From: a virus
Length of the DNA: 20,437 nucleotides
Reading direction: 5' to 3' (one strand)
IMG/VR virus record: IMGVR_UViG_3300029319_000670
Location: 1-20,437 of that record
Shown: one piece after another, positions 1 through 18,974 of the stretch
Layout of the letters: every line of letters begins with the position of its first letter
Numbering within the stretch: position 1 is the stretch's first letter
Translations under genes and position numbers: made by a program
Notes under the pieces: model-generated
Databases searched by the model: none
What the model saw: only the letters and a program-made list of their open reading frames with translations
Told to the model about the DNA's origin: nothing

Positions 1-2
1 TT

Positions 3-28
3 AGGTGGGGAGCAATCCCCACCTTTTT
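3..28 (+). terminator. Strong rho-independent terminator (T-phi-like position)
   Basis: A perfect 8-bp stem, AGGTGGGG (3-10) with CCCCACCT (17-24), encloses the loop AGCAAT and is followed by a T-run at 24-28. The GC-rich stem stands out in this AT-rich sequence. It lies just before the tail tubular genes, so by T7 synteny it should end the transcript of an upstream gene, probably major capsid, as T-phi does after T7 gene 10. The upstream gene is outside the window. Confidence 0.88.
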
Positions 29-229
29 ATGAAAAATATTAAAGAATTAAAACCTGTACTACACTTTAAAAAAGATAATTATGTGTACAGATATGTATTG
101 GTAGACAGATTCAAACACGGTCCTAAATACCATTATGGATTTGATACCAAAGCAGAACGAACAGAAGAAGAAATTTTTGCTTTAGAAAAAGATAGACAGA
201 TAAGGCGAAAGTATATTATAAGGAAATAA
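29..229 (+). CDS. Small hypothetical protein after the terminator
   Basis: A 66-residue Lys/Arg/Tyr-rich soluble protein that I do not recognise. The frame stays open upstream to a GTG at 5, but that start lies inside the terminator stem, so ATG at 29 is chosen. No free Shine-Dalgarno (SD) sequence precedes it: the five upstream bases are the T-run and the bases before those are in the hairpin. It ends one base before the tail tubular A gene. T7 has no gene between T-phi and gene 11, so this is an extra small gene. It would be translated only from read-through transcripts or from a promoter I cannot see. Confidence 0.6.
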   Translation: MKNIKELKPVLHFKKDNYVYRYVLVDRFKHGPKYHYGFDTKAERTEEEIFALEKDRQIRRKYIIRK

Positions 230-230
230 T

Positions 231-812
231 ATGGCATCAGTAGTAGAAATTTGTAATGGAGCATTAAATCAACTAGGTGCAACAACTATCCTTTCACTTA
301 CAGAAGATTCAAAAAATGCAAGACTTTGCAATCAAAGATTTACACAAGTAAGAGATGCAGTATTCAGATCACATCCTTGGAACTGCTTACAAAAAAGACA
401 AGAACTAGCAGCAGACACTACAGCTCCTGCATGGGGTTTTAAGTTTGCTTATACTCTACCAGCAGATTGTTTAAGATTACTTAGAATACTAGACTATGAT
501 TCAAACTACAAAGTAGAAGGTAGAAAGATATTAAGCAATACTTCTAGTATGAAAATTTTATATGTTGCTAGAATTACAGATCCTAATGAATATGATGAGT
601 CATTAAGAGAAACTTTATCTGCTGCTTTAGGTGCTGATATAGCTTTTGGAGTTACTTCTAATAATCAAACAGCAACTAATATGTACAATTTATTTCAAGA
701 TAAATTAAGAGATGCTAGATTTATAGATGCAACTGAAGGTCAAAACATAGATCAAGACCTAGGTATGTCAGATCAAATAGATGCAGGTACATTTATAAAC
801 TCAAGGTTTTAA
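231..812 (+). CDS. Tail tubular protein A (T7 gp11-like)
   Basis: At 193 residues it is close to T7 gp11 (196). The N-terminal stretch has the family pattern EICNGALNQLG, then NARLCNQRF and the RSHPWNC block near residues 45-52, typical of podovirus gp11 proteins and of P22 gp4-like head-to-tail adaptors. These proteins form the ring below the portal that joins head to tail and is completed by the nozzle protein. The next gene is tail tubular B, the same order as in T7. The ATG at 231 is preceded by AAGGAAA at a workable distance. Family assignment is firm; atomic role is by homology. Confidence 0.88.
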   Translation: MASVVEICNGALNQLGATTILSLTEDSKNARLCNQRFTQVRDAVFRSHPWNCLQKRQELAADTTAPAWGFKFAYTLPADCLRLLRILDYDSNYKVEGRKILSNTSSMKILYVARITDPNEYDESLRETLSAALGADIAFGVTSNNQTATNMYNLFQDKLRDARFIDATEGQNIDQDLGMSDQIDAGTFINSRF

Positions 813-815
813 TAA

Positions 816-3380
816 ATGGCTAGAGTAGCTGTAGAATTAACAAACTTTACAGGTGGTGAACTATCACCAAGATTAGATGGTAGAACTGATCTAACTAAAT
901 ATTCATCAGGTTGCTCGACATTAGAAAATTTAGTTGTCTACCCACATGGCTCAGCAGCTCGTAGACCAGGTTCTACATTTATAGCAGAAGTTGCTGATAG
1001 CGATAATAAAACAAGATTAATCCCTTTTGAATTTTCAACAACACAAACTTATATGCTTGAGTTCTCTAATTTAAAAATGAGAGTGTATAAAGATAAAGGT
1101 GCTGTATTAGAAGGAGACAAAACTATAACAGGAATTACACAAGCTAATCCTGCTGTCGTAACCGCAACTTCACATGGTTATTCAAATGGTGATGAAGTAT
1201 TAATTAGTGGTGTTTCTGGTATGACAGAAGTTAATGGTAAAAGATTTTTAGTTGCAGATAAAACTACCAATACATTTGAACTACAAGATAAAGATGGTGT
1301 AGATATAAACAGCACATCATTCACTGCTTACGCTTCAGGTGGTGTATCTAATAAAGTTTTTGAACTAGCAACACCTTATACTACTGCACAACTTTTTGAT
1401 ATAAAGTTCGCACAATCAGCAGACGTAATGTACATCACACACCCAGAACACGAAGTAGAAAAACTATCTCGTACTGGTCATACATCTTGGACACTAACAG
1501 ATGTAGATTTTACTGATGGTCCTTATTTAGATAATAACATTACAACAACAACATTAAATCCAGGATCACATACTGTAGGAACAGGTGTAGCAGTTGTTGC
1601 TTCTGCTATTACAGGTATCAATTCTAATACAGGATTTCAATCAACAGATGTTGGCAGATTAATTAGATTTAGAGATGGCTACATGAAAGTAACTGCTGTT
1701 ACAGATACTTTAAATATTACAGTAGAAATTATAGAAGATTTAGGATCAGCAACTGCTTCAGCAGATTTTGCTTTAGGTTCTTTTTCTGACACCACAGGTC
1801 ATCCTTCTTGCGTAACCTTTTTTGAACAACGATTAGTATTTGCAGGAACAACTGATCAACCACAAACAGTATTCTTTTCAAAGTCAGGTGATTATGAAAA
1901 CATGAATGAAAACAGAGGTGGTACTGTAGCAGATGATGATGCAATCATTTATACAATAGCATCAAACCAAGTTAATGCGATTCGATTTATGACAGCAACT
2001 AGAACTTTAATTATTGGCACAGCAGGTGGTGAGTTTACTGTATCTGGTGGTGGCACTGATAGTGCTATCACACCAACAAACATATTAATTAAAAAACAAT
2101 CTAACCATGGCTCGGCAAATGTAGATGCTATATCTGTAGGTAATGCAACATTATTTTTACAACGTGCAAAAAGAAAGATAAGAGAACTAGCTTACAACTT
2201 TGATGTTGATGGTTACATTGCACCTGACATGACTATCCTTGCTGAACATATTAGTGAAGGTGGTTTGACACAAATCGCATATCAACAAGAACCAAATCAA
2301 ATTGTTTACGCTACAAGAAATGATGGTGAGTTAGTAGCATTAACTTATCAAAGAGAACAACAAGTAACTGCTTGGCACAGACATATATTTGGTGGTAGAT
2401 TTGGTAATGCAACAATAACAGTAACTGATTTTGCAAACATAGCAGATGGTACAAGAATAGTTTTAACAAAAGCAGATGGCACAACTACAACCTTTACGTC
2501 TGCCACATCTGCTACAAGTGGTAAGTTTCACACAACATCTAGTAACAATCAAACAGCTACAAACTTAAAAACATTAATAGATGCTGACTCTGATTTTACA
2601 GCAACAGTTAGTAGTAACGTAGTTACCATTAAAGAAACATCTCCATTGTCTACAGGATTTTTAACTATTACATCTTTAGATGATGCTACTAGATTAGCAA
2701 AAACTGATGAGGGTAAAGCAGTATGTGAAAGTGTTGCGGTAATCCCAACAGACGATACAGAGTATGAAGTTTATGTAATTATTAAAAGAACAATCAATGG
2801 TTCTACTAGAAGATTTGTAGAAGTTTTAAATGTATTTGATTTTGATCAAACAGATAATACATCATTTAATTTTTTAGATAGTGCATTAAGTTATAGTGGT
2901 AGTGCTGTAAGCACCATATCAGGATTAGATCATCTTGAAGGACAAACTGTTTCTATATTAGCAGATGGTGCAACGCACCCAGATAAAACTGTAAGCTCTG
3001 GTAGTATAACTTTAGATCGTTCATCAAGAAATGTTAAAGTTGGTTTAGCTTATAGATCATTGTTACAAACTATGAGATTAAATGCTGGTTCACAGAATGG
3101 AACATCACAAGGTAAGACTAAAAGAATATATGATATTACTGTTAGAATGTTTGAAACAATAGGTGTTGAAGTTGGACCAAACTTAAATGACATGGAAAGA
3201 ATACCATTTAGAAGTTCTGCTGATTTAATGGATGAAGGTATACCACCATTTACAGGAGATAAAGAGGTAGAGTTTAGAGGAAACTATGAAACAGATGGTT
3301 TTATCTTTGTTAGACAAACACAACCTTTACCTTTTACAATTTTATCGTTATACCCAAGATTAACTACTAATGATGGATAA
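816..3380 (+). CDS. Tail tubular protein B / nozzle (T7 gp12-like)
   Basis: An 854-residue protein, a little longer than T7 gp12 (794). The N-terminal block, with NFTGGELSPRLDGRTD and then PHGSAARRPG, is the signature of the marine and proteobacterial podovirus tail tubular B / stabilisation protein family, which forms the tail nozzle that closes the DNA channel. Residues about 106-177 look like a ubiquitin-E1 FCCH-type beta module (HGYSNGDEVLISGVSGM, then NTFELQD), common in such phage proteins. Residues about 530-634 look like an extra inserted beta domain (TITVTDF to TRLAKTDEG) between the WHRHIFGG and VCESVAVIP family blocks. It starts three bases after the gp11-like gene, and its last 11 bases overlap the next gene. 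Confidence 0.85.
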   Translation: MARVAVELTNFTGGELSPRLDGRTDLTKYSSGCSTLENLVVYPHGSAARRPGSTFIAEVADSDNKTRLIPFEFSTTQTYMLEFSNLKMRVYKDKGAVLEGDKTITGITQANPAVVTATSHGYSNGDEVLISGVSGMTEVNGKRFLVADKTTNTFELQDKDGVDINSTSFTAYASGGVSNKVFELATPYTTAQLFDIKFAQSADVMYITHPEHEVEKLSRTGHTSWTLTDVDFTDGPYLDNNITTTTLNPGSHTVGTGVAVVASAITGINSNTGFQSTDVGRLIRFRDGYMKVTAVTDTLNITVEIIEDLGSATASADFALGSFSDTTGHPSCVTFFEQRLVFAGTTDQPQTVFFSKSGDYENMNENRGGTVADDDAIIYTIASNQVNAIRFMTATRTLIIGTAGGEFTVSGGGTDSAITPTNILIKKQSNHGSANVDAISVGNATLFLQRAKRKIRELAYNFDVDGYIAPDMTILAEHISEGGLTQIAYQQEPNQIVYATRNDGELVALTYQREQQVTAWHRHIFGGRFGNATITVTDFANIADGTRIVLTKADGTTTTFTSATSATSGKFHTTSSNNQTATNLKTLIDADSDFTATVSSNVVTIKETSPLSTGFLTITSLDDATRLAKTDEGKAVCESVAVIPTDDTEYEVYVIIKRTINGSTRRFVEVLNVFDFDQTDNTSFNFLDSALSYSGSAVSTISGLDHLEGQTVSILADGATHPDKTVSSGSITLDRSSRNVKVGLAYRSLLQTMRLNAGSQNGTSQGKTKRIYDITVRMFETIGVEVGPNLNDMERIPFRSSADLMDEGIPPFTGDKEVEFRGNYETDGFIFVRQTQPLPFTILSLYPRLTTNDG

Positions 3381-3825
3381 TATGTTATATATAGTACCTT
3401 ATACTGCTGAACATGGAAAATTTATTCTATCATGTCAAATGAATCACGCACTTATGGATAAGGATGCTAGATTTGAAGGTGATGCTATGAACCTTGTGCA
3501 AGACCACCTTTCTTTTACAGGCATGGTTGGTAAGAAACCAATTTTCGCTGCTGGTATGAAAATGATTTGGGGTCAGGTCGCAGAAGGTTGGGTGATTGCA
3601 ACACAAGATGTTTGGGATCATCCATTGTCAGTTGCTAAAGCAATCAAGAAAGATTTTGCTAGAGTTGCAAGAAAGTATAATATTAAAAGAGTTCAAACTG
3701 CTGTAAGGTCAGATTTTGATAAAGGTATAAGATTTGCAGAATGGTTAGGATTAGAAAACGAGGGATTAATGAAACACTATGGTTTTGATGGTTCAGACCA
3801 ATATAGATTTGCGAGGATATTTTAA
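3370..3825 (+). CDS. GNAT-like protein in the T7 gp13 position
   Basis: A 151-residue protein (147 if ATG 3382 is used). The C-terminal pattern, IRFAEWLGLENEGLMKHYG followed by DQYRFARIF, resembles the last strands and helix of GNAT acetyltransferases. T7 has internal virion protein gp13 between gp12 and gp14, and related marine phages carry proteins of this type there. A structural or assembly role is therefore as likely as acetyl transfer. The GNAT acetyl-CoA loop (Q/R-x-x-G-x-G/A) is not evident, so activity is doubtful. Possible starts are ATG 3370, 3373 and 3382; the first two overlap the gp12-like gene and suggest coupling. Confidence 0.7.
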   Translation: MMDNMLYIVPYTAEHGKFILSCQMNHALMDKDARFEGDAMNLVQDHLSFTGMVGKKPIFAAGMKMIWGQVAEGWVIATQDVWDHPLSVAKAIKKDFARVARKYNIKRVQTAVRSDFDKGIRFAEWLGLENEGLMKHYGFDGSDQYRFARIF

Positions 3826-4283
3826 TGGGATTTTTAGCACCAGCAGCACCTTTTATTTCAGCAGCTACATCAATAGCAGCAGCTCAACAAGCAAGTGCTG
3901 TTGGTAGATATAATCAAGCTATACAAAATCGTAATGCACAAATAGCAGAACAAGAAGCTCAACAACAAGAAAAACAAAAAGAATTTGATATTGCTAGATT
4001 TGATCAACAGTTTGCAAGACTTCAAGGTCAAACAAGAACAAATGTATTGTTTTCTGGTGCAGAATTATCTGGATCAGGTTTAAGAATATTAAGACAAAAT
4101 GCTGAACAAGCTGAAATAGAAAAAGATATTTTAGATTATAATTCTAAAGTTAAACAATCTCAAAAATTAGAAGAAGCAAATTTTGCTCGTATGCAAGGTA
4201 CTCTTGCAAAAAGACAAGCAGGATTACAAGCACTTGGTTATTATAGTAAAGCTGGAACAAGTTTATTAGGAGCATTTGGATAA
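3825..4283 (+). CDS. Internal virion protein (T7 gp14-like)
   Basis: A 152-residue protein; T7 gp14 is 196. It has a small hydrophobic, Ala-rich N-terminus (FLAPAAPFISAATSIAAAQQ), a Gln/Glu/Lys-rich central helix, a GAELSGSGLRILRQNAEQAE block and a hydrophobic end. This pattern is typical of gp14-like internal core proteins, which leave the head first and form the outer-membrane part of the DNA ejection channel. The start overlaps the previous stop by one base (TAATG), so translation is probably coupled. Position between the gp13-slot and gp15/gp16-type genes supports the call. Confidence 0.8.
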   Translation: MGFLAPAAPFISAATSIAAAQQASAVGRYNQAIQNRNAQIAEQEAQQQEKQKEFDIARFDQQFARLQGQTRTNVLFSGAELSGSGLRILRQNAEQAEIEKDILDYNSKVKQSQKLEEANFARMQGTLAKRQAGLQALGYYSKAGTSLLGAFG

Positions 4284-4285
4284 CT

Positions 4286-5692
4286 ATGCCTAAGATACCT
4301 ACATTTACAGCAACAGGAAGACCCACAGCAGATGCACCAGGAGTTAGAACTGGTATTCAAGTTTCACCAACTGCTACTATTGGTGCTGCATTACTACCTG
4401 CTGCTGAAGTTATTAGTAACTATTCTATAAAAAAAAGAAATAATGAAGAAAAATTAGTTGCTGATAAAATAATTTTAGAATTAGATTCTGAGTCTGATAA
4501 AATTATACAATCACAAAAACAAAATATTGTCGAAGAAGATGCTATTAATAATTATAAAAATACATTTACACCTTTAGTAAATCAAAAATTATCTACCATA
4601 AAAAATAGAAGAGTTAAAAATTTAGTTGAAAGAGGTATAGATTTACAAAATTCAACAAGTATTTATCAATTAAAAAAAAATAGTTTTGAAGCATATCAAG
4701 GTGATAGTTTAGTAAATGTAAATAATAAAATTACTTCTAATATTGGAAAGTATGCAACTTCAGACAATCCAATAATGAAAGTAAAATATAAAACAATTAC
4801 TAAAGAAATAATTAAAGATTATGTTGAAGAATTTAATTTACCTAAAAATGTATTAGATCAAAAATTAGAAGCTGCTGATAGAGATTTTTTATTATCAGAC
4901 ATAAATCAATTTGCAGGTCAAGTAAATGGTGCTGAACAAATTAATGATTTAGATATTAGTTTAAAAGGAACTAATTTTTTAAATGATGAAGATTTTGGTG
5001 CAGGTGTTTACTCTGCTTACAATAATAAAATATCTGAACTAACAGTAAAAGGTAATCCAAATTCTGATTATGATAGAGCTTTAGAATTAGTAGATGAATT
5101 AAAAAATTTTAAAAGATCAAATGGTTATAGAGTTGATACAGGAAAATTATCTATACAAATATCTAATTTAGAACAAAAAGTATTAACTGAAAAAATATCA
5201 CATGATAGTTTAATTAGAAAACAAGGAGACAATAGATTATTTTATGGGTATGCAGAAAGTTTAAAAAAAGATTTATCTCAAAGTATAGCTGACCCTTATA
5301 GTGATCCTTCACTTGCTGACAGATTAGCTGCAACAGAGATAGAACAAGAATATGATAAAAGAATTAATAATTATGTTGTTTCAAATCCAGATGCAACTTT
5401 AGAAGAAAAAAGAGCTTATGCTAGATCAGTTACTTTTGTTTTAGCAAATAAATATGAAGATAATAAAATTTTAAAACAATCTGAATTTAATTTACAATTA
5501 TCTGCTACAGATTTAACAGATCAGTATAATACAACTATAAATGATATGAAAAAACTTGCTGATGGTACACTAGATCAAGATACAATAGAATCTTATGAAA
5601 GTTTAGCAAGAGCCAATGGTTATCAAGATATTCAATCTTTTATGAATGATTATATACCAATATTAGAATCTCAACTTTCAAGATCAAGATAA
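4286..5692 (+). CDS. Internal virion protein (T7 gp15-like)
   Basis: A 468-residue, mostly helical, charged protein rich in Lys, Asn, Asp and Glu, with long stretches suited to coiled coil and no membrane helix or Cys-based motif. T7 gp15 is 747 residues, so this is a short version. It is assigned from its place between the gp14-like and gp16-like genes and its overall character, since gp15 proteins diverge fast. In T7 gp15 forms the periplasmic tunnel for genome ejection. It starts two bases after the gp14-like stop and ends in a TAATG overlap with the next gene. Confidence 0.68.
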   Translation: MPKIPTFTATGRPTADAPGVRTGIQVSPTATIGAALLPAAEVISNYSIKKRNNEEKLVADKIILELDSESDKIIQSQKQNIVEEDAINNYKNTFTPLVNQKLSTIKNRRVKNLVERGIDLQNSTSIYQLKKNSFEAYQGDSLVNVNNKITSNIGKYATSDNPIMKVKYKTITKEIIKDYVEEFNLPKNVLDQKLEAADRDFLLSDINQFAGQVNGAEQINDLDISLKGTNFLNDEDFGAGVYSAYNNKISELTVKGNPNSDYDRALELVDELKNFKRSNGYRVDTGKLSIQISNLEQKVLTEKISHDSLIRKQGDNRLFYGYAESLKKDLSQSIADPYSDPSLADRLAATEIEQEYDKRINNYVVSNPDATLEEKRAYARSVTFVLANKYEDNKILKQSEFNLQLSATDLTDQYNTTINDMKKLADGTLDQDTIESYESLARANGYQDIQSFMNDYIPILESQLSRSR

Positions 5693-8600
5693 TGGCTACA
5701 GAATTTTCTCCAGAAGTTTTAAATTCATTAGAAAAATTTAATCAAGAAACTGTTAAGATAGAACCAGTTAATTCAGGTCTAGTAAAAAATCCAGATCAAG
5801 AAGATGCAAATTATTGGAATATTGCAAGAGATATGGCTTTATCTGCACCACAAGGTGTTTTTAATGCCATAGAAGAACAAGGAGATTTTTTAGATGAAAA
5901 TATAATTTCATTGGGTGGACTTGAGTTTGGAGATCAAGATGGTAAACTTACGTTCAAAGATTTTATACCAACATTTGTTCCGCCTTCAAAATGGAAAACA
6001 GAAGAGTATTCAAAAAAAAGACAACTACCAACTTTTCACAAACCAGAAACTTTAGCAGGAAATATGACAGAAGGAATATCAAGATTTCTTACTGGTTATG
6101 CAGGACCAGCTAAATTTTTAAAAGGTGCAGGTTTAGGAGGCACAGCAATAAGAAGAACAGGTAGAGCATTGATTGGTGGTGCAGTTGCTGATCTTACTGT
6201 ATTTGATCCTAACGAAGGTAGACTATCAGATATGTTAGTTGAGTTTGATTCACCTGTATTAAATAATGCTGTTACTCAATATCTTGCAACAGATAAAGAA
6301 GATGGTGAAATGGAAGGTAGATTAAAAAATGTATTAGAAGGAATGGCACTTGGTGGAGTTGCTGAATCTATATTTTATGGAATTAAAGGTTTTAAACAAA
6401 TGAAAAAAACAAAAGATTTAGAAAAAAGAGCAGTTTTACAAAAAAAAACAGACTTAGTTATTAAAGATGCACAAAAAGGAAAAAAAACAAAAAGATTAAG
6501 AAAACTTGCTTTAGAAAATAATGATGCAATAGATACAAAAGAAGCATTAAAAGTAATTACAAAATCAAAAGAAACTGCAAAAAAAGATGCAGAACTTTGG
6601 ATAAAAAAAATATTAAATACCAAATCACTTACAAGTGGTGAGCAAGTATTAAGAACAATAGACAATGTTGTTGATAATGGATTTGATGATATTACAAAAG
6701 AATTTTTAGAAAATGATAAATTAGCAAATGAAGTTGCATTAGAACTTGCAGAGATTGCAGGTAGAGATCAAAAAGAAGTATTAAAAGCAATCACAAAAGA
6801 AGGTGTAAGATCAAAAGATGGAACAGTTAGGATGCTTACCAATAAAATGTTTTTACAGCAACTTGGTCAAGATTTTATAGATGTGTCAAAAAAATATTTA
6901 GACGAGTTTGGAGAAAACGTAGATAATTGGTCTAAACAATCTAAAGAAGAAATAGCACTGAGAGGTAAAGTTATTCAAGAAGTTACTTATGCTTTAAAAG
7001 AACAAATAAGAAATGCAGCAAGAATAACACAAGCTGGTAATATAAAAGTTACAAGATCAGGTGGTAAAATTTTAGAAGTAGAAGATATTGCTAAAAACAT
7101 AAAAAACTTTAATGCCAATCCTGCTGTACTTGCTAAAAAAATAAAAGACATGAAACCTAAAGATGCTGTAGATGTAATATCAAAAACAAGATCACAAAAA
7201 GGTATTGAAGTATTTAACTCATTGTATATTAACTCTTTGTTATCTGGAACTTATACTCATGCAGTAAACTTTCTTTCAAACTCATACGAACTATTATTAA
7301 AACCAGCAGAACAAATTGCAGGAGGTATTGTTACAGCAAATATGCGATCCATAAGAACTGGAGCTTCTCAATATTTTGGAATGATGTTCACCATAGGTGA
7401 TACATTTAATGCTGTTAGAATTGCTTTTAAACAAGGTGATGCAATTCTTGACCCTCTTGCTAGAACTCAAGATAATTTAAGAATAATAAATGGCAAAGCT
7501 GTAAGACCTATTAGTGGTTCTAATCTTGGATTCGATGGTAGAGCTGGTACTTGGATAGATCGTCTTGGTATAATAGCAGAGCTACCAACAAGACTATTAA
7601 TGAGTTCTGATGAATTATTCAAACAATTAAATTATAGAGGTAGATTGTATGCCAACGCAGTAGATAATACTTTAGAATTAGGTTTAGATATTTCATCTAA
7701 AGAAGGTAGAGCAAATATAGACAGAATTTTTAAAGAAGGTTTTGATAAAAATGGAATGGCTAATGTAAAAGACAATCCAATAGCTGCTGAATCTTTGCAA
7801 CAAGCAAGAGTAGCAACATTTACAAATAGTTTAGAAGATGGAAGATTATTGAACATTGGTGGATCTTGGCAGAAATTTTTAAGAAATAGTCCTTATTTAA
7901 GATTTCTTACACCTTTTATAAGAACACCTACAAATCTTTGGAGACAATTTGAAACTCGTATTCCTGTTTATGGTTCATTTACAAAACCAATGAAAGATTT
8001 ATGGAGAACAGGAGATAGAAGAGCAAGAGCAGAGGTTTTAGGTAGACAAGTATTTGGAATATCTGCTGCTTTGTATGCTTGGCATTTAACTCAAGCATCA
8101 GTTAAAGATAAAAATGGAAATATATATCCTAAGATAACAGGTAATGGACCAAAAGATTTTAATATTAAAAAAACATGGATGAATAATGGATGGCAACCTT
8201 ATTCTATTGCAAGAGAAAATAAAGATGGCACAATAACTTATTTACAATACAATAGAATGGACCCTCGTTTTTATTTATTCGGTATTGCAGCAGATATGAG
8301 TGAAAATAGTAATAGTATTAATGATGAAGATAAAGAAAATATGTTTGCAGTTATAGGTTTATCAGCAATGAGATCAGCTATTAATAAATCTTATGTAAGA
8401 GGATTAGCAGATACTTTTGAACTTATGCAGAGAACAACACCTCAAAAATTAGAAAAGTATGTTGGTAGACAATTTGCAAATGCAATTCCTTATCAAGCAT
8501 TAATAGGTCAAGGTATTCCAGGTATAACAGAATATGATACTGATATGTTAGAAGCTAGAGGATTTGTTGATGAATTAATTAAAAAAACACCATTGATAAC

Positions 8601-9183
8601 TAAAACAGATTATTTAGAACCAAGAAGAGATATATTAACTGGTGAACCTATTGTTAGAAATCCTAACTCTATTTATTTTAATCCTGAAGGTGGAATATCT
8701 TTTTTAAGTTTTACTCAAGGACCTATTTTAGTGGGTAAAAAATCTCAGTTAAAAGATGATCCTGTAACATTAGAAATAGCAAGATTAAAAGTAGGTTTAT
8801 CTGAACCAAGAAAAATTATAGATAATATAGAATTATTAGATTATAAAATTGATGGTCAATCTGCTTACGATTATTGGACAGAAAGAGTTGGAAAAACCAA
8901 AGTTAGAGGGTTGACTTTGAAAGAAAAATTAGAGAGAACATTTGAATCTTTATCTTATAAAAGACAACAAGATGGTAATTTAGACTTTGATGGTAATAAA
9001 AAAAGAATTATACAAAGGATATTTGAGGTTCATAAGAAACAAGCATTTGGTGATGTTCTTGAAAAGTATAAAAAATTAGAGGAAGATTTACTAAATGCAA
9101 AGAAAGAAAAGTATGGATTTCTGCAACCAATGAGACTAGGAGATGTCAAAGAGCAACCAAAAGAGTTGTTGCCTAGACAATAA
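5692..9183 (+). CDS. Large internal virion / DNA ejection protein (T7 gp16-like)
   Basis: At 1163 residues this is the largest gene in the window; T7 gp16 is 1318. Position and size fit the protein that spans the inner membrane and draws DNA into the cell. The centre and C-terminal half show blocks I associate with marine phage internal core proteins: NSLLSGTYTHAVNFLSNS near residues 510-528, FLTPFIRTPTNLWRQFETR near 735-755 and the hydrophobic VFGISAALYAWHLTQ near 787. I see no lytic transglycosylase (SLT) motif at the N-terminus, unlike T7 gp16. It is coupled to the gp15-like gene by TAATG and followed by a 22-base gap before the fibre gene. Confidence 0.78.
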   Translation: MATEFSPEVLNSLEKFNQETVKIEPVNSGLVKNPDQEDANYWNIARDMALSAPQGVFNAIEEQGDFLDENIISLGGLEFGDQDGKLTFKDFIPTFVPPSKWKTEEYSKKRQLPTFHKPETLAGNMTEGISRFLTGYAGPAKFLKGAGLGGTAIRRTGRALIGGAVADLTVFDPNEGRLSDMLVEFDSPVLNNAVTQYLATDKEDGEMEGRLKNVLEGMALGGVAESIFYGIKGFKQMKKTKDLEKRAVLQKKTDLVIKDAQKGKKTKRLRKLALENNDAIDTKEALKVITKSKETAKKDAELWIKKILNTKSLTSGEQVLRTIDNVVDNGFDDITKEFLENDKLANEVALELAEIAGRDQKEVLKAITKEGVRSKDGTVRMLTNKMFLQQLGQDFIDVSKKYLDEFGENVDNWSKQSKEEIALRGKVIQEVTYALKEQIRNAARITQAGNIKVTRSGGKILEVEDIAKNIKNFNANPAVLAKKIKDMKPKDAVDVISKTRSQKGIEVFNSLYINSLLSGTYTHAVNFLSNSYELLLKPAEQIAGGIVTANMRSIRTGASQYFGMMFTIGDTFNAVRIAFKQGDAILDPLARTQDNLRIINGKAVRPISGSNLGFDGRAGTWIDRLGIIAELPTRLLMSSDELFKQLNYRGRLYANAVDNTLELGLDISSKEGRANIDRIFKEGFDKNGMANVKDNPIAAESLQQARVATFTNSLEDGRLLNIGGSWQKFLRNSPYLRFLTPFIRTPTNLWRQFETRIPVYGSFTKPMKDLWRTGDRRARAEVLGRQVFGISAALYAWHLTQASVKDKNGNIYPKITGNGPKDFNIKKTWMNNGWQPYSIARENKDGTITYLQYNRMDPRFYLFGIAADMSENSNSINDEDKENMFAVIGLSAMRSAINKSYVRGLADTFELMQRTTPQKLEKYVGRQFANAIPYQALIGQGIPGITEYDTDMLEARGFVDELIKKTPLITKTDYLEPRRDILTGEPIVRNPNSIYFNPEGGISFLSFTQGPILVGKKSQLKDDPVTLEIARLKVGLSEPRKIIDNIELLDYKIDGQSAYDYWTERVGKTKVRGLTLKEKLERTFESLSYKRQQDGNLDFDGNKKRIIQRIFEVHKKQAFGDVLEKYKKLEEDLLNAKKEKYGFLQPMRLGDVKEQPKELLPRQ

Positions 9184-9205
9184 AATAATTATATAGAAGG
9201 ATAAT

Positions 9206-11176
9206 ATGACAATATCTTCAACTACAGTAAAAAATTCATATTCAGGTAATGGAAGCACAACAGCTTTTGCTTACACATTTAAGATATTTGCGAACACAGA
9301 TTTACAGGTAATAATTAGATCATCTACAGGAACTGAAACTGTCAAAACTTTGACAACTCATTATACAGTATCTGGCGTGGGAGATGCTTCAGGTGGTAAT
9401 GTAACATTTACTTCTGGCAATATCCCTGCATCTGGTGAAACAGTTGTGATCAGAAGAGCTGTTCCGCAAACACAGGCAATAGATTATATTGCCAATGATC
9501 CATTCCCTGCGGAATCACACGAAGAGGGTTTGGATCGTGCAACCATGACCACACAACAAGTTCAAGAAGAACTTGATAGGTCTTTAAAATTATCAAGAAC
9601 AAATACTATGACATCTACAGAGTTTACTGTAGGTGCAACAGATAGAGCTAATAAAGTTTTATCTTTTGATTCTTCTGGTGAACTTTCAGTTACACAAGAA
9701 CTTGGTACATTCAAAGGCGATTGGTCTAGTGGCACAGCTTATGTTATAAGAGATTTAGTTAAAGACACATCAACAAACAATATTTTTATAGTAAACACAG
9801 CACATACTGCATCAGGTTCAGAACCTTTAACAACTAATGCAAACTCTGCTAAATATGATTTAATTGTAGACGCAGCTAGTGCAACGACTTCAGCATCTAA
9901 TGCTGCAACCTCAGCTACCGCAGCAGCTAGTTCAGCAACTGCCGCAGCAAGTTCTGCTTCATCTGCTTCTACACAAGCATCTAACGCTTCAACTTCTGCA
10001 TCAAACGCTGCTTCTTCTGCTACTGCCGCTGCCGCAAGTGCAACAGATGCCGCTAATTCTGCTGATGCTTTTGATGATATTTATTTAGGTTCTAAATCAT
10101 CTGATCCATCCACAGATAATGATGGTGATGCTCTAGCAGCAGGTATGCTATATTTTAATACTACAGATGATTTGCTTCGTGTTTATACAGGTTCAGCTTG
10201 GCAAAATGCTGCTGTGGATACTACTGGTTTTATCACAGTTTCTGGAACACAAACTTTAACAAATAAAACTTTAACATCACCTAAAATTGGAACTGCACTT
10301 TTAGATACCAATGGTAACGAACTTGCAAAAGTTACTGCAACAAGTTCAGCAGTAAACGAATTTACAGTTGCTAATGCTGCAACTGGTAATGGTCCAAGAA
10401 TATCGGTAACTGGTGATGACAGTAATGTTGATTTAGATTTATTAGCCAAAGGCACAGGTCATGTAACTGTTAGAGGTAATACAAACTCTGGTGCTATACA
10501 ATTAAATTGTGAAGTTAATACACATGGTCAGCAAATTAAAGCACAACCTCACTCTGCTGGTGTTACCAATAGTATGTTATTACCTGCTGGTGCTGATTCA
10601 ACTTTAGTATCTTTAGTATCGACAGATACACTTACTAATAAAACTTTAACTTCTCCTAAAATTGGAACAAAAATTGACGATACAAATGGAAATGAATTAG
10701 TTAATTTAACAGCTACAGGTTCAGCTGTTAATGAATTTACTATTGCCAATGCAGCTACAGGAAACAATCCTGTTCTTTCTGCAACAGGTGGAGATAGTAA
10801 TGTTGGTATAGAATTTACAACAAAGGGTACAGGAACTATTAAATTTAACGATCTAGCTTATATTCCACAACAAGCATTAACATCTTCATCAAATGCAGTA
10901 GCGTGGGATACACAAGCTAAACCAAACGCATATCATTTAACAACAGAAAATACTACTTTTGCTGCACCAACAAATAATACAGAAGGTTCATTTATTTGTT
11001 TAGAGATTAATTACAATGGTTCACACACAATCGCATTTAATACTGTGTTTGAATTTGCGGCTTCAACTGCACCAACATTTACTTCAACAGATGGTAAAAC
11101 TGATATATTAGTTTTTAGATATAATGGTGCTGTATGGCAAGAAGTAGGTAGAACATTAAATTTAAGTGAGAGTTAA
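9206..11176 (+). CDS. Tail fibre protein with T7 gp17-type N-terminus
   Basis: A 656-residue fibre. Residues 1 to about 135 match the T7 gp17 N-terminal tail-attachment domain (SYSGNGSTTAFAYTF, then GETVVIRRAVPQTQ and the DRATMTTQQVQEELDR helix). Residues about 172-205 (FKGDWSSGTAYVIRDLV) look like a small carbohydrate-binding module. Residues about 220-290 are almost only Ala, Ser, Thr and Asn, as expected for a trimeric coiled shaft. Two copies of a 73-residue unit follow, then a C-terminal beta domain (near 550-656) that probably contacts the receptor. The start has a good SD sequence, AGAAGGA. The marine host receptor is unknown. Confidence 0.87.
   Translation: MTISSTTVKNSYSGNGSTTAFAYTFKIFANTDLQVIIRSSTGTETVKTLTTHYTVSGVGDASGGNVTFTSGNIPASGETVVIRRAVPQTQAIDYIANDPFPAESHEEGLDRATMTTQQVQEELDRSLKLSRTNTMTSTEFTVGATDRANKVLSFDSSGELSVTQELGTFKGDWSSGTAYVIRDLVKDTSTNNIFIVNTAHTASGSEPLTTNANSAKYDLIVDAASATTSASNAATSATAAASSATAAASSASSASTQASNASTSASNAASSATAAAASATDAANSADAFDDIYLGSKSSDPSTDNDGDALAAGMLYFNTTDDLLRVYTGSAWQNAAVDTTGFITVSGTQTLTNKTLTSPKIGTALLDTNGNELAKVTATSSAVNEFTVANAATGNGPRISVTGDDSNVDLDLLAKGTGHVTVRGNTNSGAIQLNCEVNTHGQQIKAQPHSAGVTNSMLLPAGADSTLVSLVSTDTLTNKTLTSPKIGTKIDDTNGNELVNLTATGSAVNEFTIANAATGNNPVLSATGGDSNVGIEFTTKGTGTIKFNDLAYIPQQALTSSSNAVAWDTQAKPNAYHLTTENTTFAAPTNNTEGSFICLEINYNGSHTIAFNTVFEFAASTAPTFTSTDGKTDILVFRYNGAVWQEVGRTLNLSES
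10253..10846 (+). repeat. Duplicated 73-codon unit in the tail fibre gene
   Basis: Copy A (10253-10471) and copy B (10628-10846) start with the same ten residues, TLTNKTLTSP, and share NEFT and NAATGN blocks. About 50 of 73 residues are identical by hand alignment, and the copies are exactly 125 codons apart. The bases differ mainly at third positions, so this is an old intragenic duplication, not an assembly artefact. It lengthens the distal fibre shaft. Confidence 0.85.
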
Positions 11177-16666: not shown

Positions 16667-16875
16667 TGCAAGAAATTGTTATAGCACTTTTATTAATTGT
16701 TAATGGAGAGATCAAGGAACATAGAATACAAAACTCTATGTCTGAATGTCTTAAAGGTAAGAGGGTTGCTTCGAGAGGTGCATCACAAAATATAGAATAT
16801 CAATGTATAAAATCACTTGCAGAAACAGAAATTTATATGGGTGAAAAATCTATCAAATCACTTATACTAGAATAA
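16666..16875 (+). CDS. Small conserved phage protein, unknown role
   Basis: A 69-residue protein with a short hydrophobic start (MQEIVIALLLIVNG) and two Cys (SECLKG, YQCIKS). In plan it resembles the 74-residue protein at 14290: hydrophobic start, a polar middle, paired Cys and an acidic C-terminus, so they could be distant relatives. It lacks a lipobox, so it does not qualify as an outer-membrane spanin. The start and stop are both TAATG overlaps. Confidence 0.58.
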   Translation: MQEIVIALLLIVNGEIKEHRIQNSMSECLKGKRVASRGASQNIEYQCIKSLAETEIYMGEKSIKSLILE

Positions 16876-17156
16876 TGAGAAGAAGAGATAAACAACCACC
16901 AAGAAGTAAAAAGTATTACAGATCAACCAAGTCTGGTGCAGGTATGACTAAAGCTGGTGTTGCAAGATACCGAAGAGAAAATCCTGGATCAAAACTTAAA
17001 ACTGCTGTAACAAAGAAGAGTGGATTGACAGCAAGAGAAAAAGCTAGACGTAAATCTTTTTGTGCAAGATCAGCAGGTCAAATGAAAAGATTTCCTAAAG
17101 CTGCTAAAGATCCTAACTCAAGACTAAGACAAGCGAGGCGAAGATGGAGGTGTTAG
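16875..17156 (+). CDS. Basic DUF6321-like protein
   Basis: A 93-residue, extremely Arg/Lys-rich protein. The blocks KAGVARYRRENPGSKLKTAV (residues 27-46) and KSFCARSAGQMKRFP (60-74), with DPNSRLRQARRRWRC at the end, are those I know from small proteins widespread in marine phages (DUF6321-type, from memory). Its function is unknown; the charge and Cys pair suggest nucleic acid contact or a virion or DNA-packing role. It starts at a TAATG overlap and overlaps the next small gene by 13 bases. Confidence 0.72.
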   Translation: MRRRDKQPPRSKKYYRSTKSGAGMTKAGVARYRRENPGSKLKTAVTKKSGLTAREKARRKSFCARSAGQMKRFPKAAKDPNSRLRQARRRWRC

Positions 17157-17266
17157 ATAAATTATTTAAAATGTTTTTTGATTATATTGATAGATTAAAT
17201 AAAAAGATTAATAATCTTTTAACAATGGACTTTACTAATTTTAGTAAGAGAAAGAAAAAAAAATAA
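17144..17266 (+). CDS. 40-residue protein closing the late operon
   Basis: A 40-codon frame whose ATG is preceded by GAGG at five bases. The product is an amphipathic helix-like peptide rich in Leu, Phe and Asn with a poly-basic end (SKRKKKK). It is not recognised. It overlaps the previous gene by 13 bases, and its TAA forms the first bases of the following hairpin terminator. That arrangement suggests the last gene of the + strand transcript. Confidence 0.5.
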   Translation: MEVLDKLFKMFFDYIDRLNKKINNLLTMDFTNFSKRKKKK

Positions 17267-17298
17267 GGCGACCATTTCTGATCGCCTTAAATATTTTT
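17264..17298. terminator. Bidirectional terminator between convergent genes
   Basis: The stem TAAGGCGA (17264-17271) / TCGCCTTA (17282-17289) has a ten-base loop. On the + strand it is followed by AAATATTTTTTA; on the - strand it is followed by a long T-run (the A-rich stretch before 17264). It can therefore end both the late + operon and the - strand gene at 17305-17538. Its stem matches the second hairpin at 17639-17668. Confidence 0.8.
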
Positions 17299-17304
17299 TA
17301 TTAA

Positions 17305-17538
17305 TTATTTATTCATAAGATACCATCTAGGATTACTTTCTTTTAATTCAGCATCAATCCAATTTTCAGCTTCAGTTACAGAAACCCAAGTTCTTACTTC
17401 TTTGATACCTTTTTTTAAAATCATCCAACCATCTCCTTTAGATAATTGAACTTCATTAGTTAGTTCATCAAGATATATATCTATACCTTTATATTTTTTA
17501 ACATGAACTACTCTATCTTTTCTTTTTTTTTGTTTCAT
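17305..17538 (-). CDS. Moron-like hypothetical protein 1
   Basis: A 77-residue basic, soluble protein (HVKKYKGIDIYLDE, GDGWMILKKGIKEVRTWVS, then ENWIDAELKE). The short alternating strands and a C-terminal helix look like a compact alpha/beta fold, but I recognise no family. The ATG at 17538 has an excellent SD (AAAGGAG) and its own consensus promoter upstream, with a terminator right after it. Being a single-gene unit on the opposite strand to the late genes, it may be expressed early or in the absence of phage regulators. Confidence 0.75.
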   Translation of the reverse strand: MKQKKRKDRVVHVKKYKGIDIYLDELTNEVQLSKGDGWMILKKGIKEVRTWVSVTEAENWIDAELKESNPRWYLMNK

Positions 17539-17570
17539 TGTTTGCTCCTTTTGTTTTTTTAATTAATTAT

Positions 17571-17599
17571 AGTATATACTATTTGGATATGCTTGTCAA
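17571..17599 (-). promoter_or_regulatory. Sigma70-type promoter for the 17305-17538 gene
   Basis: Reading on the - strand: TTGACA (17594-17599), a 17-base spacer, then TATACT (17571-17576). The -35 is a perfect consensus and the -10 differs in one base. The spacer holds ATATCCAAAT, also found in the spacer of the promoter at 17942-17970. The start codon lies about 33 bases downstream of the -10. Confidence 0.82.
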
Positions 17600-17629
17600 G
17601 TCTTTTTTTTTGTAGTAAAATTAAGAGTG

Positions 17630-17668
17630 AAAAAAAAAATAAGGCGACCATATTTCAGATCGCCTTAT
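17630..17668 (-). terminator. Rho-independent terminator of the 17675-17914 gene
   Basis: A 9-bp stem, ATAAGGCGA (17639-17647) / TCGCCTTAT (17660-17668), with a 12-base loop. On the - strand it is followed by about ten T (the A-run at 17630-17639). Stem and part of the loop match the terminator at 17264-17289, so the two arose by duplication or come from the same type of module. Confidence 0.88.
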
Positions 17669-17674
17669 AGTTAA

Positions 17675-17914
17675 TTAACTATTAAAGAACTCTCTCCAAT
17701 TTTTATTTATAGACCACCAATCATTATGACCAACAATATAGGCATAAGGTCTATGTCTCATTTTAGATGGTTTCTCTCTGATGCTTTCGCTTACAGCTAA
17801 CTTACATTGTTGCTGTGCCTCTTGTTGAGTTTTACCTTTACCCCAAGCATGAGCAACTCCTCTTCTTCCTATTGCATAACAAAGAAAGAAATCATCATCT
17901 TTTTTATTTTTCAT
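17675..17914 (-). CDS. Moron-like hypothetical protein 2
   Basis: A 79-residue soluble protein rich in Trp, His, Lys and Gln (FFLCYAIGRRGVAHAWGKGK, QQEAQQQCKLAVSESIREK, then HNDWWSINKNW). The order of strand, helix and strand suggests a small globular fold; I recognise no family, and it is not obviously related to the neighbouring 77-residue protein. AGAAAGG precedes the ATG. It has its own promoter and terminator, like the gene before it. Confidence 0.72.
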   Translation of the reverse strand: MKNKKDDDFFLCYAIGRRGVAHAWGKGKTQQEAQQQCKLAVSESIREKPSKMRHRPYAYIVGHNDWWSINKNWREFFNS

Positions 17915-17941
17915 TTTTACCTTTCTATTTGTTTATAATTT

Positions 17942-17970
17942 ATTGTATACGATTTGGATATTTAATTCAA
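17942..17970 (-). promoter_or_regulatory. Sigma70-type promoter for the 17675-17914 gene
   Basis: On the - strand: TTGAAT (17965-17970), a 17-base spacer, TACAAT (17942-17947). It is weaker than the promoter at 17571-17599 but aligned with it over the shared ATATCCAAATnGTATA block, which lies between -35 and -10. That shared block may be an operator for a common regulator or a trace of common origin. Confidence 0.62.
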
Positions 17971-18002
17971 TAACCAATTTGGCTACATAGTGTCGCAGAT
18001 TT

Positions 18003-18040
18003 TGTTGTATGTTTGCAACACCTGTTGTATTCTTGCAACA
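18003..18040. repeat. Tandem 18-bp palindromic sites (operator-like)
   Basis: TGTTGTATGTTTGCAACA (18003-18020) and TGTTGTATTCTTGCAACA (18023-18040) differ in two central bases and are spaced 20 bp apart, about two helical turns. Each is an imperfect palindrome with TGTTG and CAACA ends. They lie in the space between the divergent - strand moron and the + strand small-gene cluster, directly before the ATG at 18045. A dimeric repressor or activator site is the simplest reading. Confidence 0.65.
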
Positions 18041-18044
18041 AAAA

Positions 18045-18254
18045 ATGAAACAAAAAAAAACTTGGAACAAAAGTAAATACAGAGAGTTTATCTGTGGATA
18101 TTGCACATGGTGCAAAAAAGAGTTGTTGAATACCATGGGTGGATGGATTATAACTTATAGTAAGAAGTATTTTTGCCATGATGGTAAAGATGGTTCTTGT
18201 TTTGATAAATACTGTCACATAAAAAAGGAGGCACAATGCCAGGACATAAAATGA
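18045..18254 (+). CDS. Zinc-ribbon-like Cys-rich small protein
   Basis: A 69-residue protein starting at ATG 18045; an earlier ATG at 18009 would begin inside the tandem palindromes and is less likely. C17, C20 and C23 (CGYCTWCKKEL), then C44-H45 and C52, C57 (FCHDGKDGSCFDKYC) suggest a treble-clef or ribbon zinc site around two loops. Similar Cys-rich small proteins occur in marine phages; the role is unknown, DNA or protein binding being likely. No SD is visible ahead of the ATG. It overlaps the next gene by 19 bases. Confidence 0.6.
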   Translation: MKQKKTWNKSKYREFICGYCTWCKKELLNTMGGWIITYSKKYFCHDGKDGSCFDKYCHIKKEAQCQDIK

Positions 18255-18729: not shown

Positions 18730-18974
18730 TGTCTAAAGGTTTACGATCTTGGGTCAGAGCTAATTGGGTAGACATTGCTAATCCTAAAAAAGGTGGTGGC
18801 TTTCCCAAATGTGGTAGGAGCAAAGGAGAGAAGAGACGTAACTATCCTAAATGTGTACCTGCTGCAAAAGCTAGAGCCATGACACCTGCACAAAGACGTG
18901 CTGCTGTATCAAGAAAGAAAACTGCTGAAAGAAAAACAAGAACAGGTAAGAAACCAAACTACGCTAGGACTTAG
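18729..18974 (+). CDS. Basic protein with WVDI...CGR...CVPAAKA motif
   Basis: An 81-residue protein with LRSWVRANWVDIANP, GGGFPKCGR, YPKCVPAAKARAMT and PAQRRAAVSRKKTAERK. This resembles the small DUF5872-like proteins found in marine phages; the family name is given from memory. C28 and C42 may form a metal site. It ends the + strand cluster and overlaps the tail of the convergent DnaA-like gene by 11 bases. I see no terminator between them. Confidence 0.7.
   Translation: MSKGLRSWVRANWVDIANPKKGGGFPKCGRSKGEKRRNYPKCVPAAKARAMTPAQRRAAVSRKKTAERKTRTGKKPNYART

Follow-up and report, generated by a model that had tools for sequence, protein, structure and literature searches.

Hairpin-ended small genes at an antisense docking site of pelagiphages: candidate cargo cassettes and their probable exchange

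Why do two small genes, each with its own promoter-like sequence and both ending at the same hairpin, lie antisense to the late genes of a SAR11 phage, and are they exchangeable cargo? SAR11 are the most abundant bacteria of the ocean and their phages are among its most abundant viruses; most small genes of these phages are orphans. The window analysed here is a whole virus record of 20,437 nt, whose closest named relatives are the HTVC010P-type pelagiphages. Its late genes occupy the plus strand up to position 18974 and are followed by a DnaA-like gene and others on the minus strand. We consider it probable, at roughly three chances in four, that the two genes are tandem cargo cassettes in an intergenic docking site, transcribed by the host and exchanged via short shared borders.

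The docking site and its occupants

The site is anchored on the left by a DUF6321 gene (16875-17156, plus strand; Pfam PF19846, E=1.2e-13) and on the right by a small Cys-rich gene, 'Zn81' (18009-18254, plus strand). Between them the minus strand carries, in this order, promoter, gene B, hairpin, promoter, gene A and hairpin. The promoter of gene B (17942-17970, minus strand; type P2, TTGAAT-17-TACAAT) has its -35 element TTGAAT at 17970-17965 and its -10 element TACAAT at 17947-17942. Gene B itself (17675-17914, minus strand; 79 aa, cargo family 0) is followed by the hairpin AAGGCGATC-TGAAATAT-GGTCGCCTT and a T tract (17668-17639, minus strand). The second unit comprises a type P1 promoter, TTGACA-17-TATACT (17571-17599, minus strand), gene A (17305-17538, minus strand; 77 aa, cargo family 7) and the hairpin AAGGCGATC-AGAAAT-GGTCGCCTT, again with a T tract (17289-17264, minus strand). 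A 40-aa late-strand ORF (17144-17266, plus strand) forms the left border of the site and ends at hairpin A, the base of which provides its TAA stop. The sequence-only reading of this DNA had described two unrelated small minus-strand genes with promoters sharing a spacer sequence and with hairpins of the same stem. Coordinates and motifs proved correct: ATATCCAAAT is present in both spacers, both genes end at the same-stem hairpin, and BLASTP of one protein against the other gives only E=1.5.

The corresponding interval (site I) was located and read in relatives by means of the DUF6321 and Cys-rich genes that anchor it. The site is empty in HTVC010P, HTVC034P, HTVC203P and the loci L130 and L131, so the flanking genes are adjacent there and the cassettes are extra genes in the sense used for morons. 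Environmental L130 encodes a DUF6321 protein 97% identical and a Cys-rich protein 85% identical to those of the window. Gene A occupies the site alone in L122 (same contig as L096) and gene B alone in L126, while about a dozen other genes are found there in further relatives (L365/L340/L120, L353/L366/L368, L345, L071, L238, L091, L306, L351, L299, L374/L375/L370, L369, L046 and, as gp28, isolate HTVC035P). All of this cargo is antisense to the late genes, and the A+B tandem was found in one assembled record only. The relatives thus bear out the proposal of a modular cargo site: its recurring parts enclose different genes or no gene at all, and A and B are not conserved in all relatives. A second tandem pair was seen in L246 (1453-1728), with gene 2 about 20 nt past the first hairpin and no obvious promoter of its own. 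The HTVC035P gp28-type cassette is also carried by L382 (PBPJ01000001.1), labelled a Candidatus Woesearchaeota MAG; this record and IMG/VR contig 2785511133_000004 are both 17,456 bp long, and L382 looks like a misbinned pelagiphage.

The dN/dS of gene B is about 0.1-0.3 in all informative allele pairs. As this is well below 1, gene B is a real gene and, judging from these alleles, under purifying selection. Gene A is represented by two identical copies, which give no dN/dS basis for its coding status. Neither gene has a Pfam or significant PHROG match or, up to E=0.05, a match to PADLOC anti-phage defence models, which leaves the suggested effect on the host or exclusion of other phages unsupported. 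An Rfam search gave no match. The GC content is 26.1% in gene A, 33.8% in gene B and 31.9% in the window. AlphaFold modelled the gene A product with a pLDDT of 70.7, and a Foldseek search of PDB and BFVD returned no match to this model at E<=0.001; for the gene B product the pLDDT was 57. A HicB-like fold, to which the sequence pattern of gene B had pointed, found no support and was abandoned. Our guess is that the most likely role of the cargo is to take over the host or counter its defences in a strain-specific way.

The hairpin and the promoters

A terminator scan of the window found only two sites combining an 11-pair stem with a long T run, hairpins A and B, which are linked by a 21-nt exact repeat and a 16-nt repeat of 94% identity. 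The hairpin pattern has an expectation of zero matches in shuffles. In IMG/VR, AAGGCGATC-WGAAAT(NN)-GGTCGCCTT matched 82 contigs. An ORF lies directly upstream of the hairpin in 65 units, 62 of them from phage loci, and these represent 30 gene families, over which the hairpin sequence, beyond its structure, is nearly invariant. Thirteen families have at least two members, and 10 of the 13 occur at two or more site classes, which were set approximately from neighbour gene clusters. Relatives of gene B occur in every site class; in L123-L128 the gene stands at other sites. The second major site follows the portal gene (phrog_145, E=1e-59) of HTVC026P/111P/112P/202P-like phages; it is empty in HTVC026P and HTVC112P and holds an antisense gene with a variant hairpin in the cultured phages HTVC111P (gp32; L386, 3458-3916) and HTVC202P (gp29; L384, 3485-3697). 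Together with these two, HTVC035P gp28 and HTVC106P gp23 are the isolate genes showing the same pattern, HTVC106P gp23 being a diverged homologue of gene B whose hairpin has two stem pairs exchanged by compensatory changes. The local repeat noticed earlier is part of a wider pattern: hairpin and gene pool are common to several pelagiphage groups and sites.

Folding of the hairpin on the cassette strand yields -15.9 kcal/mol and a complete stem that includes one G-U pair. For the late-gene strand the value is only -10.9 to -11.2 kcal/mol; there the stem contains an A-C mismatch and a U tract is absent. This folding asymmetry suggests a one-way terminator. In a separate scan with two stem positions left free, in which phages outside this group are also included, pairing was kept in 65 of 66 and 66 of 66 matches, which indicates selection on the hairpin structure. 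The hairpin is always oriented along its gene, and its downstream neighbour is convergent in 53 of 58 cases. A converging TAA stop lies between -4 and +6 nt from the hairpin 3' end at 50 of 58 hairpins, compared with 7.5% of random positions, and in 32 of those 50 the stop codon is the hairpin's own TTA. A T-rich tail follows 35 of 62 hairpins and is missing from the other 27. It appears to be supplied by the site rather than by the cassette, and consequently termination may be weak at some sites and vary in efficiency.

Related stems were also observed elsewhere. A sister hairpin with compensated stem pairs, AAGGCAGTC-TGAAATAT-GGCTGCCTT, ends related kinds of cargo gene (L389-L454, e.g. L402, L418, L434) and is mostly followed by ACCAATCAAA. 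In L220, L223, L225, L227, L279 and L289 the same stem, here with the loop TTTAT, lies behind a conserved gene of some 450 codons (MYLSETYEKKWQPVLEHPDLP...); as these are other AT-rich phages, the stem family extends beyond the cassettes.

Promoter A ties for the best sigma70-like score in the window. Scan statistics alone were discarded as evidence, being uninformative in DNA of 32% GC: promoter-like sites are no commoner in the window (84) than in shuffles (96). The promoter calls are therefore based on conservation between phages. The only two occurrences of ATATCCAAATNGTATA in the window are those at promoters A and B, but the motif was rejected as a stand-alone marker because it matches many unrelated contigs, and promoters were judged only jointly with the adjoining gene and hairpin. 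Promoter B with its upstream 100 nt recurs at the same site in L126, L120, L365 and L340, and the promoter A module precedes other genes in L024, L069, L071, L104 and L353. Across the units there are at least nine promoter types, which sort mainly by site, the exceptions being P1 once outside site I and P3 twice at site I. On these comparisons, the promoter belongs for the most part to the docking site and the phage group. Several site I promoters are preceded by short repeats, TTGCAANNATACAACA among them, and by a TGCGACA motif (window 17980-18060; L246, L299, L374-L377); these are possible operators of a phage regulator.

What is exchanged

The extent of the moving unit was read from 28 pairs, not independent of one another, in which the same gene, at least 80% identical in its coding sequence, stands in different contexts. 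Mean identity is 0.87 in the coding sequence, 0.81 from stop codon to hairpin and 0.96 in the hairpin, a value to which the search pattern itself contributes. No such effect underlies the steep fall behind the hairpin, to 0.42 in the first 20 nt and 0.39 in the next 40. Upstream of the start codon identity is 0.65 over 20 nt, 0.41 at 20-40 nt and 0.35 at 40-80 nt. Similarity thus falls to background at the last base of the hairpin and upstream of the ribosome-binding site. In L069 and L222 a 99% identical gene stands behind different promoters at different sites, whereas the unit exchanged between L315 and L280 also takes in the -10 region. The identity profile and the L069/L222 pair indicate that the exchanged unit is mainly ribosome-binding site, coding sequence and hairpin, with its right border exactly at the hairpin end. 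The moving unit is thus not the whole block from promoter to terminator: gene and hairpin move, and the promoter mostly stays with the site.

Such a border admits another reading, in which the hairpin is a dedicated recombination site, used in double- or single-stranded form by a specific recombinase as happens with integron cassettes, and termination is secondary. The exact right breakpoints, the near-invariance of the hairpin sequence rather than of its structure alone, the hairpins lacking a T-rich tail and the mobility of gene plus 3' hairpin past a stationary promoter would all fit. We nevertheless regard it as unlikely, since stem variants with compensated pairs are associated with cargo genes of the same kinds, in keeping with a structural role, and the hairpin always points along its gene. 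Furthermore, the hairpin sequences contain neither GTT nor AAC, and hence no attC boxes (GTTRRRY/RYYYAAC), and no integron-type integrase is present among the scanned proteins of the window, an incomplete genome, or annotated in positions 1-10200 of HTVC035P.

Less likely again is the capture of gene and terminator from SAR11 chromosomes as host-derived morons. An origin in host DNA has been proposed for lambdoid morons (PMC1524935), but a search of 84,980 species genomes with the exact hairpin gave five matches, none in a genome named as SAR11, compared with the 82 virus contigs, and most cargo proteins tested lack a Pfam or PHROG match. That A and B are ordinary lineage-specific early genes whose shared promoter and hairpin segments arose by local duplication, with no mobility, is already refuted by the comparative data, with each gene alone at the same site in L122 or L126, other genes there elsewhere and the same genes at unrelated sites.

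In the preferred reading of exchangeable tandem cassettes, host sigma70 RNA polymerase would transcribe each cargo gene on its own; we infer this from the related phage Skadi, which encodes no RNA polymerase (PMC10504331). The hairpin would end the cargo transcript, and its weaker counterpart on the other strand, devoid of a U tract, would let late transcription pass. A phage nuclease and a single-strand-annealing protein may then exchange cassettes at short shared borders, namely the hairpin, T tracts and the -10/ribosome-binding region, and selection would retain the products with intact late genes. In HTVC035P the genes for a putative nuclease and for a putative single-strand-annealing protein are neighbours, and the pair could plausibly carry out exchange over short homologies. 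As a counterpoint, a border of 25 nt is little for homologous exchange, and the exchange itself is deduced from sequence comparison. Hairpin B is directly followed by T10 and then by the module which, in phages with a single cassette, stands behind the T tract where the Cys-rich gene starts; in the one assembled tandem, cassette B may have been inserted into this tract, on the upstream side of cassette A.

A possible shared pool and its known counterparts

More tentatively, and at roughly one chance in three, we suggest that several pelagiphage groups share one pool of standardised hairpin-ended cassettes, placed antisense at few fixed late-region sites, an integron-like arrangement without an integrase in which the hairpin would serve as terminator and as exchange border at once. 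The open-licence papers searched contain no account of cassettes of this kind in pelagiphages. A recognisable hairpin border would allow the exchangeable cargo of SAR11 phages to be listed directly from metagenomes, yielding 30 or more gene families as candidates for host interaction and making gene trading by small streamlined phages testable. The fixed antisense slots would be natural plug-in sites for cargo genes. The hairpin also supplies a candidate terminator signal in phages related to Skadi, for which no terminators were identified (PMC10504331).

Three known systems invite comparison. As in integron cassettes, what moves is the gene with its 3' hairpin, the platform provides the promoter and tandem units occur; unlike them, the cassettes have no attC boxes, a hairpin of only 24-26 nt and one or two units only. 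Arbiol in 2010 and Comeau in 2014 reportedly described PeT/PeSL as mobile cassettes of T4-type phages. As described in PMC4503421, these are mobile regulatory cassettes, a composite of stem-loop and early promoter linked with the shuffling of small genes. The junction of hairpin B and promoter A, which lie within 98 nt (17668-17571), resembles PeT/PeSL in layout and apparent role. The phage here is HTVC010P-type and not T4-like, however, the motif probably differs, and the hairpin is the 3' border of a moving antisense gene at few fixed late-region sites.

Morons are autonomously expressed, classically from a prophage. In lambdoid phages they are defined as an ORF with promoter and terminator signals on its flanks and with distinct %GC (PMC1524935). 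The cassettes differ from them in the near-identical hairpin across 30 families, the recurrent docking sites, the mostly resident promoter and, for gene B, the lack of a clear GC difference. They are like them in being extra genes between genes adjacent in relatives, in their antisense placement and, at the sequence level, in having their own promoter and terminator. By position and sequence, the cassette units thus answer to the definition of morons.
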